42,363 nt of DNA. It comes from a virus. A program made the translations under genes and the position numbers. Location: positions 1-42,363 of the IMG/VR virus record IMGVR_UViG_3300044991_000714; one strand, written 5' to 3'. Below the pieces are notes generated by a model. The model did no database searches, was not told the origin of the DNA, and saw only the letters and a list, made by a program, of their open reading frames with translations. Every line of letters begins with the position of its first letter. Positions within the stretch are counted from its first letter, which is position 1. Positions 19,937-32,226 of the stretch are shown piece after piece.

Positions 19937-20586
19937 TGACTTACGAAGAACAAGAAACAATTTTGTTTACAGAATTTTCTAAAGTAAAAAAAGATTTTGA
20001 ATCTGTTTTGAAAAAGAAAGTTAATCGTAAAAACTTTAAAGAGGCTATTATTGATCTAACTAAGATCGCAGTCAACACTCAATTTGATTCAGAGATTGAT
20101 GCGGACATTAGAGAAAGACTATCTGGATTTTTCGCTGTTTGCCAGCCTTATCTTGGTGAGGTTATTTGGTCCAAGATAAAAGAGAAAGCTCTTAAGATTA
20201 GTATTGATTATGGCGATGATACAATGGTTAGCTGGAATATCCCAGTCGAAACATTTTTCGTAAATCAAAAACAATTTGAATTATCTATTGGGATGTTAGT
20301 CAATAGCTTTAAAGATTGCTTCCTTGGCCTTTTCCTATGCCCAGAATTGCGCGAAGCAGTTATACAAGGCGATGAACTAGCGGTTAAAGCTCTTTACTCT
20401 TCCTTTTCCAGACCATCTATGGAATCAACAGTTATTAATCTTAAGCTGTTCAAAGAATGTTTCCCTGAATTCTATAATCATATTACCACTAATTTAGATA
20501 TTATGAAGCTGGAAGACATGAAAGATTTTATTAAAAATAAGAATAAAGAAGTCAAAAAGCCAATTAAAAAACGTAAAGTTAAGTAA
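19933..20586 (+). CDS. Hypothetical protein with lysine-rich tail
   Basis: This 217 aa protein starts at an ATG at 19933 (or 19936), overlapping the upstream stop. It is preceded at 7 nt by GGAGG, one of the few clear ribosome-binding sites in the window. The protein is largely helical and acidic to neutral, without transmembrane segments. The last ~20 residues are strongly basic (KNKNKEVKKPIKKRKVK), compatible with nucleic-acid or acidic-partner binding. Family not recognised. It ends in a one-base overlap with the next start (TAATG). Confidence 0.65.
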   Translation: MMTYEEQETILFTEFSKVKKDFESVLKKKVNRKNFKEAIIDLTKIAVNTQFDSEIDADIRERLSGFFAVCQPYLGEVIWSKIKEKALKISIDYGDDTMVSWNIPVETFFVNQKQFELSIGMLVNSFKDCFLGLFLCPELREAVIQGDELAVKALYSSFSRPSMESTVINLKLFKECFPEFYNHITTNLDIMKLEDMKDFIKNKNKEVKKPIKKRKVK

Positions 20587-21248
20587 TGCCATACTTAAAT
20601 GCGAATATTCCTGTTTTTCATGCTTATTTAAGCAGCGACTTTCTTTATAATCATACTAAAACTGAAAAAGAATATATTTCGTGTGAAGTTTTCGGAGTTA
20701 CCTCATTAACTCGTCGCTGTCTTACATTTCAAATAATGACAGAGTATGGTTCTAGACATGATAGAGTTCCTATTCATTATCTAACCCTAGATCCTAAACA
20801 CTCTAACTATCCTTTAGATTGGTTGCAGCTTTGGGATTGTTATTCAAACGTCTTGTCCGTAACGAGATACGAATACCATAAGAACGCATCAGTAGAAGTT
20901 CAACTCAAGAATCACGAATGGGTTAAAGGCAAATACTTATTCACGATAGACTGGCACGATAATCCTGATGCTGCGTTTGGCTATTCTGAAATGGCTGGAG
21001 GACACAAATGCGGCCATCTTATTTGGGGTCTTCAAGACTCAACAGGTAAAGAATGTAATCAATTATTCTTTCAGCCAAATAATAGAGTTGTTTGGAGAGA
21101 TGGTGGCGCTTTTATCGCTAAAAAATTAGAGAAACCAGATTGGAAAGTCTTTGATAAAGAGTTCACTTGCGAAGGTAAAGGCAAGTGGTTAGCTTTAGAT
21201 AACGACGATTACTTCTATCAATTCAAAGAAGCCGATAAAAAAGTGTAA
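20586..21248 (+). CDS. Conserved-looking phage hypothetical protein
   Basis: This 220 aa soluble protein is rich in aromatic and His residues, with a middle section around residues 70-110 (LDWLQLWDCYSNVLSVTRYE) and a later patch GYSEMAGGHKCGHLIWG containing His/Cys. The pattern resembles hypothetical proteins I associate with marine-type tailed phages, but I cannot name a domain. Cys/His clusters may bind metal. It is the last gene before the curli-like block, with an 11-nt gap to the csgF-like start, and is probably on the same transcript. Confidence 0.6.
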   Translation: MPYLNANIPVFHAYLSSDFLYNHTKTEKEYISCEVFGVTSLTRRCLTFQIMTEYGSRHDRVPIHYLTLDPKHSNYPLDWLQLWDCYSNVLSVTRYEYHKNASVEVQLKNHEWVKGKYLFTIDWHDNPDAAFGYSEMAGGHKCGHLIWGLQDSTGKECNQLFFQPNNRVVWRDGGAFIAKKLEKPDWKVFDKEFTCEGKGKWLALDNDDYFYQFKEADKKV

Positions 21249-21259
21249 TAGTATGATAA

Positions 21260-21715
21260 GTGAAGAAGGCATTTTTTCTAATTTTATTTATTTTTATTTC
21301 CAGCTCGCATGGAAGCGAGATGGTCCATGGCTTCAAGTCTCCGGTATTCAACGGAGCTAACTTTTCTGGACACGCTCTCACTGTAGAGAATTTAGCGAGA
21401 ACTCGTAAGCAAGCTGTTAAGGATAACTTAAAAGCTGATCTTGAACAACAAAAGATTCAAGCTACAAATACTCCGCTTAATACTTTCATAAATAACTTAC
21501 AGGCAAGAATTTATTCCCAGTTAGCCTCACAAGTTACAGATCAGATTTTCAATTCAAACGGCGAAACGTTTGGTATTATTAATTTACAAGGTGGCGCAAC
21601 CGTCACTTGGCAGAAGAATGGCGATTTAGTAACGCTATATATCAACGACCCCGCAACAGGTAGTTCTACACAAATTCAGCTTCCTGTTGGAGTCCTCAAA
21701 CCAGGAGGTGGATAA
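21260..21715 (+). CDS. csgF: CsgF-like curli assembly factor
   Basis: This 151 aa protein starts at GTG 21260; the ATG at 21253 is followed at once by a stop. A signal peptide covers about the first 18 residues. The start of the mature protein has FKSPVFNGANFSG, the equivalent of the CsgF FRNPNFGG segment that plugs the CsgG pore. The C-terminal part shows NLQGGATVTWQKNGDLVTLY followed by INDPATGSSTQIQLP, closely parallel to the end of E. coli CsgF (DRKTGQTSTIQV). In bacteria CsgF couples the CsgG channel to nucleation of curlin fibres on the cell surface. It is 2 nt upstream of csgG; the pairing confirms the identity. The middle, Q- and R-rich, is longer than in E. coli. Confidence 0.85.
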   Translation: MKKAFFLILFIFISSSHGSEMVHGFKSPVFNGANFSGHALTVENLARTRKQAVKDNLKADLEQQKIQATNTPLNTFINNLQARIYSQLASQVTDQIFNSNGETFGIINLQGGATVTWQKNGDLVTLYINDPATGSSTQIQLPVGVLKPGGG

Positions 21716-21717
21716 GG

Positions 21718-22512
21718 ATGAGATGGTTAACTCCATTCTTACTTCTTTTCCTAGTAGGTTGCTCATCTTTTCCGCAAAAACCTGCTATATTAGAGAAGCC
21801 TAAACTGCAAGCTCCACCTTTGGAGCAGCAGTTGCGTAATTTACCGCCTCCAGAGAGTCCTAGAATTAGCATTGCCGTCTATTCTTTCGTCGATAAGACT
21901 GGTCAACGCAAAACTGTAGATTCCTACGCCTCTTTTTCGTCCGCAGTCACACAAGGCGCGGAAAGCTGGCTTATAGACGCTTTGCGCGTTGCTGGCAGCG
22001 GTCAATGGTTTCAGGTGTTAGAACGCACCAGTTTAGACAATATCATTAGAGAACGGCAGCTAATCAACCAAACGAGAGAAACCTTTCAAGGCAGAGACGC
22101 TGAAAAGCTCTCTCCTATGCTGTTTGCTGGCATCATTGCAGAAGGTGGTATCATCGGCTACGACACCAACATAATTACTGGTGGCGCTGGTGCAAGCGTT
22201 CTTGGCATATCGTCTAGTGCTCAATATCGCAAAGACGTTGTTACAGTATCACTTCGTTTCGTTAGCGTACAAACAGGTGAGATACTACTTAGTGTAGCTG
22301 TAACTAAAACAATTTCTAGTGTCGCGGTTTCAGGCAATCTATTCAAATTCTACGAACACGGCGTAACTCCTGTGGAAGCTGAACTTGGATTAACTGCCAA
22401 CGAACCAAATACGATAGCTGTTAGAAGTGCTATTGAACAAGCAGTGATAGAGATAGTAGATCAAGGACAGAAATCGGGATTCTGGAAATATAAAACCCCT
22501 CAAAAACAATGA
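21718..22512 (+). CDS. csgG: CsgG-like curli secretion channel lipoprotein
   Basis: This 264 aa protein is near the family length. A lipoprotein signal ends LVGC (C15 lipidated). The body follows CsgG almost motif by motif: ISIAVYSFVDKTGQRK, FQVLERTSLDNIIRERQ, IIAEGGIIGYDTNIITGGAG, QYRKDVVTVSLRFVSVQTGE, and VTKTISSVAVSGNLFKF. In bacteria nine subunits form an outer-membrane beta-barrel pore for unfolded curlin. In the constriction loop the Phe of the E. coli NF pair is kept (SFS), while the Asn position is Ser and the loop is one residue longer. It has a GGAGG at 21704-21708, 9 nt before the start, and overlaps the curlin-like gene by 4 nt. Confidence 0.95.
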   Translation: MRWLTPFLLLFLVGCSSFPQKPAILEKPKLQAPPLEQQLRNLPPPESPRISIAVYSFVDKTGQRKTVDSYASFSSAVTQGAESWLIDALRVAGSGQWFQVLERTSLDNIIRERQLINQTRETFQGRDAEKLSPMLFAGIIAEGGIIGYDTNIITGGAGASVLGISSSAQYRKDVVTVSLRFVSVQTGEILLSVAVTKTISSVAVSGNLFKFYEHGVTPVEAELGLTANEPNTIAVRSAIEQAVIEIVDQGQKSGFWKYKTPQKQ

Positions 22513-23225
22513 AAATCAAACTATTAGCCCTGTATGTATTTTTATCAGCCCTTTGCTTTGGGCAGAATCAAATATACATTAACCAAATCACCACTACTGG
22601 TACAACAACTCTTGTTCAAACTGGTAGCGTTAATAAAATTGGTTCGTCTGGAATTCCCAGCGAAATAACATCCGACAATCTCACTTTCGAGATGAGACAA
22701 GTTGGAGACGATAACGAAGCTAACTTCTCTATGATCGGCAACAACTTGACCCTAAAATCTATTACTACTGGTAATAGCAATAACCTAAAGATGTTCACAA
22801 ATGGAGCAAATAATGATATTGACTTAACCTTTACTGGTAACTCAAATACATTCTTGCTTAATAAAGAAGCTACTGTTGGTAGTACCGACAAAGCTACTAC
22901 TGTTGATGGCGATGTTAAATTCGTCGTTACTGGTAACAGCAACGTAATGAAAGTTGGAATCGACGATGGTAAATATAATAAATTAGATTATCTCATCACT
23001 GGTTCCAGCAATTTATTAACTACAACTCAATACGGCAACCCCGGTGGAAACGCTGCTGGCAGCGGTCATAGCCAAATTGTAACTGTCTTAGGAAGCTCAA
23101 ACACAATGAACTTCCAGCAAGCAGGTTCAGAAAAACAAACCTTGACCTACAATTTGACTGGTAGCTTCAATACAGTTTCTATTCAGCAAAGCACAACCGC
23201 CGCTGCTTTAATTCCTATTCCATAA
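22509..23225 (+). CDS. Curlin-like amyloid repeat protein
   Basis: This 238 aa protein has a signal peptide cleaved after CFG (about residue 18). The mature part has repeats with a G-[NS]-[SF]-N core near residues 88, 110, 142, 165, 195 and 219, often with Q-x-G or Q-Q nearby (RQVGDDNEANFSMIG; TTTQYG; NFQQAG). Spacing alternates between 22-24 and 30-32 residues. Curlin repeats have ~22 residues (S-x5-QxGxxNxA-x3-Q) that stack as a beta-solenoid amyloid. The sequence is Asn/Thr/Ser/Gln/Gly-rich and nearly Cys-free after the signal. It is directly coupled to csgG by ATGA, so it is the probable secreted substrate. Whether it is a CsgA or a CsgB type cannot be decided. Confidence 0.8.
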   Translation: MKIKLLALYVFLSALCFGQNQIYINQITTTGTTTLVQTGSVNKIGSSGIPSEITSDNLTFEMRQVGDDNEANFSMIGNNLTLKSITTGNSNNLKMFTNGANNDIDLTFTGNSNTFLLNKEATVGSTDKATTVDGDVKFVVTGNSNVMKVGIDDGKYNKLDYLITGSSNLLTTTQYGNPGGNAAGSGHSQIVTVLGSSNTMNFQQAGSEKQTLTYNLTGSFNTVSIQQSTTAAALIPIP

Positions 23226-23226
23226 C

Positions 23227-24414
23227 GTGAGAATTGCCGTTATATTTTTATTAACGGCTTTATCTCTTTTTGGTTCATCTGGTAAAATAACAGAGGCTAC
23301 TGGGCCAACTCAAATTACCAGAGATAAGGATAAGATCGAGGGTAAAGCCAACGTTGGGATTGAGATGTTCGACACAATCGAAACGCTTCAATCTCGCGTT
23401 GGCATTTCCTTTGTGGATGACACAAGACTTCAGATCACAGAGTTTTCTAAACTTAAAATTGATGAATTCGTTTACGATCCATCAAGCGGCAAAGGTTCTT
23501 TGTCTATCAAAGCCGCATCAGGAACCATTAGATATACTTCTGGATTGATTGCCAAGAATAGCAAAGAAAACGTAAAGATTAAAACTCCAACCGCTGTTGT
23601 ATCAGTAAGAGGAACTGATTTCTCAATGAGCGTAGGAGAAGACGGTAAAAGTTTAATTGTTCTTTTGCCGTCGCTTCCAGCGTTAACTGGCTTGCCTCCA
23701 GTTGTAGGCTCCATTGAAGTTACCAACTCTAGTGGTACAGTTGTGTTGAATCAAGCTTATCAAGCTACGTTCGTCGCTTCTGCTTTTTCTAATCCAACAT
23801 CGCCAGTTATTCTTGATTTAACTGATGAATCTAAGATCAATAATAATCTTCTTGTAGAGAGTAATAAATCTATCACAAAGAATAGTAAAGAAACAAAAAA
23901 AGTTTCGTCTGAAAAAGATAAAGTCGAAGACAAGAAAGACGATAAATCAAATAAGAAAACTGGAGATACCAAAACTCAAGTAGCACAACAAACTACTGCT
24001 GAATCGGTAACAGAAGCCGCAAGCACAACAACAGATGCTCCGCCTCCACCTAAACAAGAAATAGAAGTTGCTCAAATAAAATTGGACGCTAAAATAGAAG
24101 CTCCAACAGTTGAAGCTCCAAAAGTCGAAGCTCCTGCAACCGTGGCAAATATTGCAACAGTTCAAGAAGTTCCTAAAGTTATAGTTCCTTCAATCACGAA
24201 TCCAATTCAGACAAATAATATAACATCAGGAACAACCACCGTTAACAACGGATTCACTACTGATGGAAAGTATGCTTCATTATCTCTATCTACTGATAAA
24301 GGTGTAATCAAATTTACCACCAAATACGACGCTAATTCTACTGTTACAGTTAATGGTCAGGCTTACGTTTTAAACTACGGCGAAAAAAGTAAAGTTTACA
24401 TTACTCAGAGATGA
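23227..24414 (+). CDS. Secreted FecR-domain protein
   Basis: This 395 aa protein starts at GTG 23227, 1 nt after the curlin-like stop. The signal peptide is about residues 1-17. A FecR-type beta domain spans about 35-165, with the typical sequence order: 'V.G..M...D.I.T...S.V.I.F.D.T.L.I', 'SGTIRYTSGLIA', then KIKTPTAVVSVRGTDFSMSV. A Lys/Asp-rich linker follows (about 218-250), then a Pro/Ala/Glu repeat (APTVEAPKVEAPA) and a final small beta domain. FecR domains often act in the periplasm or bind surface polymers. Its start is 1 nt from the curlin gene and its end overlaps the cyclase by 4 nt, so it could link secreted fibre status to the CHASE2 sensor; this is inference. Confidence 0.85.
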   Translation: MRIAVIFLLTALSLFGSSGKITEATGPTQITRDKDKIEGKANVGIEMFDTIETLQSRVGISFVDDTRLQITEFSKLKIDEFVYDPSSGKGSLSIKAASGTIRYTSGLIAKNSKENVKIKTPTAVVSVRGTDFSMSVGEDGKSLIVLLPSLPALTGLPPVVGSIEVTNSSGTVVLNQAYQATFVASAFSNPTSPVILDLTDESKINNNLLVESNKSITKNSKETKKVSSEKDKVEDKKDDKSNKKTGDTKTQVAQQTTAESVTEAASTTTDAPPPPKQEIEVAQIKLDAKIEAPTVEAPKVEAPATVANIATVQEVPKVIVPSITNPIQTNNITSGTTTVNNGFTTDGKYASLSLSTDKGVIKFTTKYDANSTVTVNGQAYVLNYGEKSKVYITQR

Positions 24415-26459
24415 AGAAATATAAAATCTATACTGCAATAGCTTCGCTGTTAGTTTTGATTTGTTTAGTAGCTTTAAGAGTTAAAGACCCATTTTTCATT
24501 GAGACTGCGAGGCTAAAAACGTTAGACTACTATCAAATCACTCAAGAGAAAGTAAAAAGCGAAAGCGTTGTAGTTATTGAGATAGACGAGAAAACTCTTG
24601 AGAAGCATGGTCAATGGCCTTTCCCAAGACAAATCTTAGCTGACGCAATAATAAAAGCGTTTGATAACGGCGCGGAGATTGTTGTGTTGCCAATCATCTT
24701 TGCTGAGAACGACAGATTCAATGGAGACTCTGCGTTAAAAGAAACCTTTGGTAAATATCCTGTAATCATTAGTCAGTCTGCGGCAAATAAAGGAAAAGGC
24801 TCGCCTGTGCCAAGAGGAGTTGCTGTTGTTGGTAGCGGTATCAATGATTGGTTATTTGATTATCCTGCGGCGATTGGGCCGACGAAAGAACTTGGCGAAT
24901 CTGCTGCTGGCGTTGGTATGCTTTTAACTGCGCCTGAAGTTGATGGCGTAGTAAGAAGATTGCCGCTGATCGTTCAAGTGGACAAAGAGTTTTACCCAAC
25001 ACTGCCATTAGAAATTTTGCGCGTAGCTTCTAACGATCCAAGTTACCAAGCAAAAGTTAATCAAGCTGGCATATCTGCTGTTCGTATTCCTAAATTTAAA
25101 ACAATTAAAACTGACGAAAATGGGCGCGTTTGGTTAAACTTTAAATACACTTTTGATTCTTTTTCGTTCACCAAACAAGATTGGTCTGAGGTTAAAGGTA
25201 AGATCGTCATGATTGCACCAACAGCAGAAGGTCTTTCCAACACTGTTGCAACATCAGTGAACATTAAGAACGGTTACGAAATTCCTTTGTTTGCGGCACA
25301 AATGCTTTTAGATGACTCAAGATTAGAAAGACCATCAGAGTTTAACACTTACGAGATTCTTTATGGTTTAGTGGCAGCGTTAATCGTTGTTGTTGCGTTC
25401 ATCTGGTTAAACTACTTGGTTTGTGCTGGACTGTCTATCGCTTTAATGATCGCTCCTGTATTTTATGGAGTCAAAGCGTTCAGTAATGGACTGCTCTTTG
25501 ATTATAGTTGGATAGTTGCCGCTCTCTTCATCTGCTTCTCTGTGTCTGCGTTCATGCGATTTATCAATGAATTTAAACAGAAGCAGCAAATCAGAAAGCA
25601 GTTTGAACATTATCTTGCTCCTGCAATGGTTAAAAAGCTCCAAACTAATCCAGAACTATTAAAACTTGGCGGCGAAACTAAAGACTTGACAATCCTTTTC
25701 TCTGACGTTCGCGGTTTCACTGCACTCAGCGAGCACTTCAAGACTGATCCTCAAGGATTAACTTCTTTGATTAACCGTTACATGACTCCTATGCTGAAAT
25801 TAGTTATGAGCAAAGATGGAACTGTTGATAAACTGATTGGAGATGCGGTGATGGCTTTTTGGAACGCGCCTGTTGATGTAGCGCGTCATAAAGAATTAGC
25901 TATCGAGTGCGCTGTTGAGATGTTCGTCAAGCTCGATGAGCTAAATAAACAACTCGCGTTGGAAAAATTACCGCAACTTTCCATTGGCGTTGGCGTCAAT
26001 TCTGGCTCCGTTGTAGTTGGAAACATGGGTTCAGAAAATCGTTTCGACTATACTTGCCTTGGAGATGCAGTTAATCTCTCATCTCGCTTAGAAGGTCAAA
26101 GCAAACCTTATCACGTTGGAATCGTAGTTGGCGAACAAACCGTGAAAGGCATCGAAAACTCTTTTAATTTCCTAGAGCTAGACAACATCGCTGTCAAAGG
26201 TAAGAAAGAAGGCATCAAGATTTATACCGTAATCACGAACGATGACAAGGCAAATAAGATTGTTTCTCATCACAAGAAGATGATAGAGTTCTACTACGAG
26301 ATGAACTGGGAAGAAGCGGAAATCTATTTGATTAGACTGAAAGCAGAAAATCTAAAGATGATTCAGTATTACGAGATGATGGAAAGCCGAATCTCTGAAC
26401 TCAAAACCGCAAACTTACCTAAAAATTGGGATGGCGTTTATCACGCAACTAGCAAGTAA
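24411..26459 (+). CDS. CHASE2-domain class III adenylate cyclase, membrane bound
   Basis: This 682 aa protein has an N-terminal TM helix (about 7-23), then an extracytoplasmic CHASE2 domain (about 30-310, with VVVIEIDEKTLEKHGQWPFPR and GVGMLLTAPEVDGVVRRLPL). Three closely spaced TM helices lie at about 316-385, and a class III nucleotide cyclase domain at about 425-610. Catalytic residues are all present: metal Asp D432 (LFSDVRGFT) and D478 (IGDAVMAFW), adenine-selecting K474 with T548 (DYTCLGDAVN), N555 and transition-state R559 (NLSSRLEG). K plus T points to ATP, hence cAMP, rather than cGMP. It is the last gene of the curli-like block and couples to FecR by ATGA. A short helical tail (about 625-682) is of unknown use. 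Confidence 0.93.
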   Translation: MKKYKIYTAIASLLVLICLVALRVKDPFFIETARLKTLDYYQITQEKVKSESVVVIEIDEKTLEKHGQWPFPRQILADAIIKAFDNGAEIVVLPIIFAENDRFNGDSALKETFGKYPVIISQSAANKGKGSPVPRGVAVVGSGINDWLFDYPAAIGPTKELGESAAGVGMLLTAPEVDGVVRRLPLIVQVDKEFYPTLPLEILRVASNDPSYQAKVNQAGISAVRIPKFKTIKTDENGRVWLNFKYTFDSFSFTKQDWSEVKGKIVMIAPTAEGLSNTVATSVNIKNGYEIPLFAAQMLLDDSRLERPSEFNTYEILYGLVAALIVVVAFIWLNYLVCAGLSIALMIAPVFYGVKAFSNGLLFDYSWIVAALFICFSVSAFMRFINEFKQKQQIRKQFEHYLAPAMVKKLQTNPELLKLGGETKDLTILFSDVRGFTALSEHFKTDPQGLTSLINRYMTPMLKLVMSKDGTVDKLIGDAVMAFWNAPVDVARHKELAIECAVEMFVKLDELNKQLALEKLPQLSIGVGVNSGSVVVGNMGSENRFDYTCLGDAVNLSSRLEGQSKPYHVGIVVGEQTVKGIENSFNFLELDNIAVKGKKEGIKIYTVITNDDKANKIVSHHKKMIEFYYEMNWEEAEIYLIRLKAENLKMIQYYEMMESRISELKTANLPKNWDGVYHATSK

Positions 26460-26711
26460 TCAAGAAATTGCGCCAGCATCTTTGTGCATCTTGATGATCT
26501 TGTCAAGAACTTGTATAGCTAAAGTGAAATTCATACTGTCAATAGCGTGAATTAAAAGCTTTTTTAAATCGTAGAGTTCGCTTTGATCTACTCCAACAGT
26601 TTGAACTTTCTGCGGAGAAACCAAACCCACAGGCGAATTTCTAGCGTACATCGAAGCCGCATCTTTAAGATTTGGCCCAAACGAAATAGAATTGACAGGA
26701 GAAATCTCCAT
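26460..26711 (-). CDS. Hypothetical small protein, lone minus-strand gene
   Basis: This 83 aa protein is encoded opposite to all its neighbours and convergent with the cyclase gene (the stops abut). The product has a helix-rich C-terminal half (LYDLKKLLIHAIDSMNFTLA) and a Pro/Ser-rich N-terminus; no motif is recognised. Its codons are reasonable and no plus-strand gene occupies the region, so a real gene is more likely than not. Its start faces the divergent macro-like gene across an 83-bp gap. Confidence 0.45.
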   Translation of the reverse strand: MEISPVNSISFGPNLKDAASMYARNSPVGLVSPQKVQTVGVDQSELYDLKKLLIHAIDSMNFTLAIQVLDKIIKMHKDAGAIS

Positions 26712-31320: not shown

Positions 31321-32226
31321 ATGAAACTATCTCTCTGTTGCATATCCGAAATCCTTGCCGAGCACAAAGGCTTCAAGTTTGAGACTATGACTCTCACTCG
31401 ATTCCTTTCTCTAAATCGAGCCGATGCTGTTCGCGTTCTTAGCAAACGCATCCTCCATAATTTTTTCATCACGCATCAAATCATCAAGCATTGCCACAGC
31501 TACGGCATTGCTGGCTATCGTTTGTCCTCTAGTTTGACGCCTGTTATCAATCATCCTGATGTTAATCTTCGTCTGCAAGACTTACCTGATTGGCCTGATA
31601 TGCGTGACGCTCTGCGTAGAATCGCCAACGAGATCAAAGCTAGTGGTGTCAGAATTTCCGCTCATCCTTCCGAATACATCACGCTCACTAGCCAAAATCC
31701 TGACGCAATCAGGAACAGTGTGCGCGACTTAATTTCTCATGCCGAACTATTTGATATGCTTGACTTGCCTCAAGACTATCGCTCGCCGCTCAACATTCAT
31801 TGTCGTCAAGATGGCGACTGCGAAGAAATCTCCCAACGCTTTCTCGCCAATTACGATACTCTACCTCGCAACGTAAAGTCGCGTCTAGTCGTCGAAGTCA
31901 ACGACAACGTTGCTGGCTCATGGAACATCGCTAACTTGCACAGACATTTTTTCCTCACTAGCGGAATCCCTGTAACCTACGACTCTCTCCATCGTGAATT
32001 TTGCAACTCTGGCACCACCGACGAAGAAGATTTCAATCTCGCTTATTCTACTTGGAACACCGCTCCTTTATTCCACTTTTCCGAGGGCGTCAATGACACG
32101 CGCAAGCACGCTGATATGCCGATTGGCAAGCCCAACGCTTACGGCAAAGACGTTTTCTTCGACGTGGAACTCAAGGGTAAAGACAAAGCTATTTTCAAAC
32201 TTTTAAATTTAGAGTATCACTTATGA
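31321..32226 (+). CDS. uvdE: UV-damage endonuclease UvdE/UvsE
   Basis: The protein has 301 aa and a TIM-barrel of the AP-endonuclease-2 type; it nicks DNA 5' of UV photoproducts and some other lesions. Family signatures are all in order: RLSSSLTP (67-74), SAHPSEY (113-119), NIH (158-160), VVEVND (190-195), TYDSLHREF (219-227), FHFSEG (251-256), HADM (263-266) and VFFDVELKGKDKA (278-290). The DSLH region, where most members have HH, has only one His here. Codons end often in C/G compared with nearby genes. It ends in an ATGA overlap with the next gene. Metal ligands include the His and Glu of these motifs. Confidence 0.92.
   Translation: MKLSLCCISEILAEHKGFKFETMTLTRFLSLNRADAVRVLSKRILHNFFITHQIIKHCHSYGIAGYRLSSSLTPVINHPDVNLRLQDLPDWPDMRDALRRIANEIKASGVRISAHPSEYITLTSQNPDAIRNSVRDLISHAELFDMLDLPQDYRSPLNIHCRQDGDCEEISQRFLANYDTLPRNVKSRLVVEVNDNVAGSWNIANLHRHFFLTSGIPVTYDSLHREFCNSGTTDEEDFNLAYSTWNTAPLFHFSEGVNDTRKHADMPIGKPNAYGKDVFFDVELKGKDKAIFKLLNLEYHL

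Follow-up and report, generated by a model that had tools for sequence, protein, structure and literature searches.

A type VIII secretion operon with a FecR protein and a CHASE2 cyclase in a phage with a lambda-like tail tip

The operon and its products

The DNA analysed here, referred to as the window, is the whole of the IMG/VR virus record IMGVR_UViG_3300044991_000714 (42,363 bases), which is probably a fragment. Between positions 21260 and 26459, five open reading frames (ORFs) lie on one strand with junctions of 2, -4, 1 and -4 nt and encode, in order, homologues of CsgF and CsgG, a curlin-like protein, a FecR-domain protein and a CHASE2 adenylyl cyclase, which together make up a phage-encoded type VIII (curli-type) secretion system (T8SS) operon (Table 1). 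An initial annotation, made from the letters alone, had described five genes with 1-2 nt gaps or 4-nt overlaps, and its coordinates and gene order match the ORFs exactly; this observation is confirmed. A search with profile hidden Markov models, proposed there as a check, bore out the CsgF, CsgG, FecR and CHASE2-cyclase identities, with Pfam scores all over the cut-offs. Scans of the operon region for promoters and terminators found no more of them than in shuffled sequences.

Table 1. Positions of the operon genes and of other features mentioned in the text (window coordinates unless a locus is named).
Feature	Position	Strand	Assignment	Evidence
csgF	21260..21715	+	pore companion/chaperone with signal peptide	Pfam CsgF 7.1e-17; phrog_35372 1.9e-29
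csgG	21718..22512	+	outer-membrane lipoprotein pore, lipobox LVGC, T8SS channel	Pfam CsgG 2.7e-51
gene 3	22509..23225	+	curlin-like fibre subunit, candidate substrate	PDB profile matches; Curlin_rpt in relatives; AlphaFold2 (AF2) model
fecR	23227..24414	+	FecR-domain protein	Pfam FecR 7.4e-10; AF2 mean predicted local distance difference test score (pLDDT) 67.2
FecR C-terminal strand	24388..24408	+	curlin-type strand with invariant Q394	alignment and motif count
cyclase gene	24411..26459	+	CHASE2 adenylyl cyclase	Pfam CHASE2 3.6e-38, Guanylate_cyc 4.8e-24
cyclic-nucleotide-binding gene	L034:4370-5017	-	cyclic-nucleotide-binding protein with hydrophobic tail, divergent from csgF	
upstream gene	20586-21248	+	220-aa protein, ends 11 nt before csgF	phrog_3704 (labelled ferredoxin there)
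downstream gene	26460-26711	-	83-aa protein right after the operon	
UvdE gene	31321-32226	+	UvdE-type UV-damage endonuclease	Pfam 1.1e-36
split cyclase frame	L038:12803-15670		cyclase, 591 + 101 aa	

The Pfam CsgF match spans residues 7-142 of the window protein, in which F25, P28, F30 and G32 form the N-terminal F-x-x-P-x-F-x-G motif noted earlier. The same motif is found in 39 of 60 distinct phage CsgF proteins (21 are without the exact form) versus 2 of 13 distinct bacterial ones, and comparison of CsgF with PDB sequences gave no match under 0.05. CsgG aligns with solved CsgG over residues 9-259 (phmmer, E 5.8e-43).

The product of gene 3 begins with a signal peptide, followed by an N-x-I-Y-x-x-Q start and a series of Q-x-G-x-x-N repeats. 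A profile built from 28 relatives, including the window member, found only two matches at E up to 1 among 177,635 distinct PDB sequences, and both are curlins (8c50, 0.0027; 8enq, 0.19). When the 28 proteins were scanned singly at E up to 0.1, Curlin_rpt was detected in six (best 5.6e-7) and not in the window member. The AF2 model has a mean pLDDT of 83.6 and shows a regular series of short strands after the signal peptide. Support for the assignment of gene 3 as a curlin-like protein is thus good, if not complete.

The model of the FecR protein consists of a confident domain (residues 19-200), a predicted disordered linker (206-340) and a C-terminal beta segment (343-392) with block pLDDT of about 80-89. 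The first domain resembles the PupR cell-surface signalling domain 6ovk (Z 15.6, 137 residues, root-mean-square deviation (rmsd) 2.8) and 5ix9, a 'Cell surface anchoring domain' (Z 10.4, 73/76 residues, rmsd 2.2). The strand at the end of the protein follows a hydrophobic-x-hydrophobic-x-Gln pattern that resembles curlin repeats, and its Q394 is unvaried in 28 of 28 aligned FecR proteins. Of 55 distinct FecR proteins, which are relatives rather than independent sequences, 54 have this motif in their final 12 residues; the exception, L054, runs off its contig. The background frequency at C-termini was 63/803, counted over the other ORFs of more than 150 aa in the same loci, which include curlin-like frames and possibly non-genes. 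The strand persists despite variation in the linker and identities to the window protein as low as 26%. The FecR protein is therefore probably more than an iron regulator, and it may serve to anchor the fibre and connect it with the cyclase.

The last gene encodes a protein with a transmembrane (TM) segment at residues 6-24, a CHASE2 domain at 16-325, hydrophobic stretches at 320-338 and 360-385 (by hydropathy) and a class III cyclase domain at 423-607, which gives a TM-CHASE2-TM-cyclase layout with the metal, purine and transition-state residues in place. It matches the solved cyclase CyaB (3r5g, 2e-30). D432, D478, K474 and R559 are unvaried in all 51 rows of the cyclase alignment (50 distinct sequences, with the window counted again). 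At position 548 the alignment has 37 T, 7 D and 7 S, and at position 555 it has 46 N and 5 S. From class III enzymes, we take D432 and D478 to be the metal aspartates, K474 the purine-selecting lysine and R559 the transition-state residue, and K474 and T548 presumably point to ATP as the substrate. On these conserved catalytic residues, the cyclase is predicted to have been kept active. A split form of the cyclase frame was seen in L038, a 297-kb contig, where the two parts lie about 0.8 kb apart.

Genomic context, relatives and phylogeny

The phage context proposed in the initial annotation was borne out by three tRNAs, rIIA and rIIB, genes for both subunits of ribonucleotide reductase, and tail genes (phrog_18, 30, 32 and 31) that resemble L, K, I and J of lambda. 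The window lineage comprises 18 further loci, of which 17 have the genes immediately before csgF and 13 the gene that follows the cyclase; because these flanking genes recur, the block is not a chimeric assembly. The phrog_3704 protein encoded before csgF is common to the same number of window-lineage loci (17 others) and to six further loci, and has no Pfam match. The small protein encoded on the opposite strand after the operon also occurs in L021, L036, L038 and L045, in addition to the 13 window-lineage loci.

A scan of IMG/VR with the window CsgG yielded 306 relatives, the best 80 of which were kept. Together with the window, the phages HTVC008M and Melnitz, L084 and three contigs from Bacteroidota metagenome-assembled genomes (MAGs; L085-L087), they make up 87 phage loci. 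The order CsgF-CsgG-curlin-FecR-(curlin)-cyclase on one strand is kept in 62 of the 87, with one curlin gene in 50 and two in 12, so the search for the same gene order suggested at the outset gave a positive answer. Many of the remaining loci are cut by contig ends; in L066 and L068-L071 the cyclase is on the opposite strand, and L063 is rearranged. By comparison, neither FecR nor the cyclase was found in any of the 17 bacterial loci of the same CsgG search, for which up to 8 kb was fetched per side. A profile of the phage FecR proteins gave weak matches in 4 of 14 bacterial genomes with CsgG, all in longer ORFs of 700-1264 aa. These frames, in the CsgG-bearing bacteria L164-L167, possibly encode large surface proteins.

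A tree of 71 CsgG proteins split 54 phage rows from 16 bacterial rows with support of 100/99; several long branches were flagged in this tree, and its deeper joins are unsure. The clade of the window, whose own sequence duplicates L002 and was omitted, forms a single group of 39 rows (100/100) beside a seven-row branch with HTVC008M and Melnitz. L085 and L087 carry their T8SS operons on contigs of 121 and 142 kb with a terminase, binned in a Sphingobacteriales MAG, and are most likely phage, while the phage assignment of L086 comes from its tree position alone. The CsgG of L084 (OR851715.1), an unverified 1.5-kb 'Salmonella phage' clone, falls among the bacterial rows on a long branch, and this locus is perhaps not phage. 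A tblastn search of 50,697 phage records with CsgG returned seven matches: two for HTVC008M, four for Melnitz and this clone. Searches with the terminase gene terL gave remote matches or none; the terL of a near relative had 23-27% identity over 52-57% of its length to its matches, with none to pelagiphages among the matches listed (12 of 67).

The host may be hinted at by translation signals. Shine-Dalgarno cores are scarce in the window lineage, where they precede 56 of 322 genes (random 0.061), and near background in other clade-I loci, with 51 of 552 (random 0.077); in the HTVC008M and Melnitz stretches, by contrast, 6 of 16 and 6 of 15 genes have one. This could fit a host that makes no use of Shine-Dalgarno sequences, such as Bacteroidota, but the hint is weak: cores were counted for 3 of 12 genes in the one Bacteroidetes MAG locus and for 23 of 51 in the phage loci binned with MAGs. 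The window tRNA-Leu has matches at E<=1e-6 in 6 of 395 genomes of the phylum to which G010, a Sphingobacteriales MAG, belongs, with a best identity of 78%.

A cyclic-nucleotide-binding protein in related phages

A cyclic-nucleotide-binding (CNB) domain was found in 5 of 49 T8SS phage records searched (15, with the MAG set apart, plus 34; a subset of those that gave the 87 loci). PF00027 had no match in the 42-kb window record, itself probably a fragment. The protein has about 215 residues, comprising the binding domain and a hydrophobic C-terminal part in which Pfam recognises no second domain. A scan with an alignment of this protein gave 24 viral contigs, all of which keep a GEGA(L/C)xSxxPRNA motif. 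CsgG, CHASE2 and cyclase domains were each found in 10 of these contigs and at least one of them in 11. The 13 contigs without CsgG or cyclase include 12 with less than 9 kb before the gene. In five of the 24 (L130 and L133-L136, of which L130 and L136 are contigs already found by the CsgG scan), the gene is divergent from csgF with a gap of at most about 210 bases. A CHASE2 cyclase is present in all eight contigs with at least 18 kb before the gene; four of the eight were search seeds, and the 18-kb cut-off was set afterwards, in view of a spacing of about 13-15 kb in other contigs. Both proteins resemble Pycsar components: PycC models match the window cyclase domain (best 2.9e-28), and the protein of the relatives matches PycTIR in its CNB part (2.1e-12).

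These data raise the possibility that the phage T8SS is an envelope-sensing cAMP circuit, in which a FecR protein, plugged at the CsgG pore through a tether with a curlin-type end, would report the state of the fibre or pore to the CHASE2 cyclase and, in several lineages, a phage receptor would bind the nucleotide. The receptor gene would lie divergent from csgF or some 13-15 kb off, and in the case of the window phage the receptor would come from the host or be encoded outside the 42-kb record. Such a circuit could amount to a phage-owned, Pycsar-like switch that excludes a second phage or times lysis. We consider it unlikely. HTVC008M and Melnitz, whose records are complete, lack the gene, and in L131 and L138 it is divergent from a lipoprotein-like gene, with no T8SS in the 8 and 13 kb before it. 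The term 'cyclic nucleotide' does not occur in the main text of PMC9599517 or PMC9004378, although PMC9599517 discusses cAMP, and among open-licence PMC articles none combines 'phage-encoded', 'adenylate cyclase' and 'cyclic nucleotide-binding'.

Proposed mechanism and alternatives

We lean towards a model in which this operon displays a fibre, couples a FecR tether to a cAMP cyclase and thereby controls the surface of the infected cell, a reading that we rate as moderately probable. The first four products of the operon (CsgF to FecR) have signal peptides, from which we predict their export through the host Sec machinery during infection. By homology, CsgG would form an outer-membrane pore lined by the N-terminal peptide of CsgF, through which the curlin-like solenoid would exit to form a surface fibre; fibre display is likely. 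Given its curlin-type end and disordered linker, we infer that FecR sits at the pore, folded in the periplasm, with a long tether that would reach the fibre and a C-terminal strand that would join, hold or start it. Through its FecR domain, the protein would then pass the state of the fibre or pore on to CHASE2, and the cyclase in the inner membrane would make cAMP in the infected cell. The likely benefit would be control of the surface, by which competing phages would be kept out or neighbouring hosts retained.

The proposal of a phage curli-type pore with a fibre substrate draws support from the profile matches, the synteny, the predicted beta fold and the conserved cyclase residues. For the FecR-cyclase part of the model, the points in favour are the curlin-type strand, the tether with its terminal beta segment, the match to a surface-anchoring fold, and the shared region of a FecR gene and cyaD1 in Sinorhizobium meliloti (PMC5498481). 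Several observations weigh against the model. Of the E. coli CsgG constriction residues, which we take to be Tyr51, Asn55 and Phe56, the window alignment keeps only the Phe, a column that is F in 77 of 86 phage CsgG rows. The curlin-repeat claim of the initial annotation is carried by the profile of relatives, which leads to curlins, and not by the window member itself, whose Curlin_rpt E value of 0.96 is under the Pfam cut-off. Foldseek found no PDB match to the gene 3 model at E<=0.001, and the VIA ranking placed SufB/SufD and other beta-helices, not curlins, next to it; these model comparisons back a repeat beta fold rather than a curlin specifically. We use the wording 'curlin-like' because the sequence profile finds curlins while Foldseek does not single them out among beta-solenoids. 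The window operon has no second curlin gene that might be a separate CsgB nucleator, and CsgE had no Pfam match among the 16 distinct window proteins scanned. The missing CsgE is compatible with a phage-type module because PMC9599517 describes phage modules without it. As further points on the negative side, the text of PMC9004378 reports no clumping in Melnitz cultures, and in Sinorhizobium meliloti the FecR gene smc02177 is described as dispensable for signal perception (PMC5498481).

The same parts could also serve another use of the fibre, with a coat against superinfecting phages instead of host aggregation, or the reverse. Both uses are proposed in PMC9599517, and the lack of clumping in PMC9004378 weakens aggregation; we consider this alternative unlikely. 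PMC9004378 (2022) proposes instead, from structural analysis and gene synteny, that the CsgG-CsgF pore now acts as a gated, secretin/pinholin-like lysis timer and that the fibre gene is secondary. The cyclic-nucleotide-binding protein of some relatives, with its hydrophobic tail and its position by csgF, could link cAMP to the membrane in such a scheme. An outer-membrane pore alone, however, does not depolarise the inner membrane, and the curlin-type end of FecR fits fibre handling. Moreover, a curlin-like gene follows csgG in all phage loci reaching that far except L063, which has curlin-like genes on the opposite strand, and the unverified L084. We regard a lysis pore as quite unlikely.

If the second messenger were the main product, cAMP would alter host physiology and the T8SS would be only its sensor. 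The conserved catalytic residues of the cyclase and the 10 of 24 cyclic-nucleotide-binding contigs with CHASE2 and cyclase domains fit this idea, which is nonetheless improbable in our view. Another reading, discussed in PMC7029224 and PMC9599517, is uptake through the pore: iron compounds, cofactors or macromolecules would enter for phage growth, and FecR would sense iron. The name of the FecR family, the match of its fold to the PupR signalling domain and the lack of a CsgE gate speak for it. It would leave CsgF and the curlin-like gene unexplained, and neither a TonB-dependent receptor nor an ECF (extracytoplasmic function) sigma factor was found among the subset of window proteins that was scanned; we judge it very improbable.

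Comparison with known systems

The initial annotation knew of no described phage version, a claim that does not hold: the operon is annotated in HTVC008M and Melnitz and is discussed in PMC7029224, PMC9004378 and PMC9599517, where superinfection defence, aggregation or 'sibling capture' and a lysis pore are considered. We therefore rejected the window as the first-described case, and the annotation's interpretation is partly supported, plausible yet already published. Podo- and myophages carrying a module of CsgF, CsgG, CsgA/B, FecR, often a second CsgA/B, and an adenylate cyclase are described in PMC9599517 (2022), where metatranscriptomes give evidence that the module is expressed, and csgGF is mentioned in sediment temperate viruses in PMC9636769.

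The closest described systems are those of HTVC008M (KC465899) and Melnitz-3 (MZ577098), which share the gene order of the window, with 44-45% identity for CsgG and 39-41% for the cyclase. HTVC008M and Melnitz have an extra gene between fecR and the cyclase gene, annotated as a second curlin-repeat gene in Melnitz and as hypothetical in HTVC008M. The window module has a single curlin gene instead of two. PMC9599517 reports a histidine kinase ahead of the podophage module; in the window, neither of the two genes preceding csgF has a Pfam kinase match. Known modules are in myophages or HTVC023P-type podophages, whereas the window has a lambda-like tail tip, a backbone that is not that of a pelagiphage and a CsgG in a separate clade.

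Bacterial curli operons share with the window the CsgG and CsgF homologues and a curlin-type substrate, but the window has no recognised csgE, csgD or second curlin gene and adds FecR and the CHASE2 cyclase. A FecR-domain protein and a receptor cyclase also occur in one region in S. meliloti, where smc02177 lies in the region of cyaD1 and a CHASE2-deleted CyaD1 makes cAMP constitutively (PMC5498481); unlike in the window, no curli genes are named in that part of the article. A biofilm operon of Burkholderia encodes a LysM/FecR protein together with a CHASE2 kinase (PMC5192318). The resemblance to Pycsar (PycC with a CNB effector) lies in the matches of the window cyclase to PycC and of the relatives' cyclic-nucleotide-binding protein to PycTIR, while the differences are that the window cyclase is of the CHASE2 receptor type and that no cyclic-nucleotide-binding gene was found in the window record.

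The curlin-like end of FecR and the linked cyclic-nucleotide-binding protein of relatives make the function of the phage curli operon testable: does FecR anchor the fibre by its C-terminus, and is cAMP under the control of fibre or pore? Because the window has a lambda-like tail and its own CsgG clade, the module is not tied to the two published phage groups, and the window operon is a new branch, in a phage with a lambda-like tail tip, of the already known phage T8SS.

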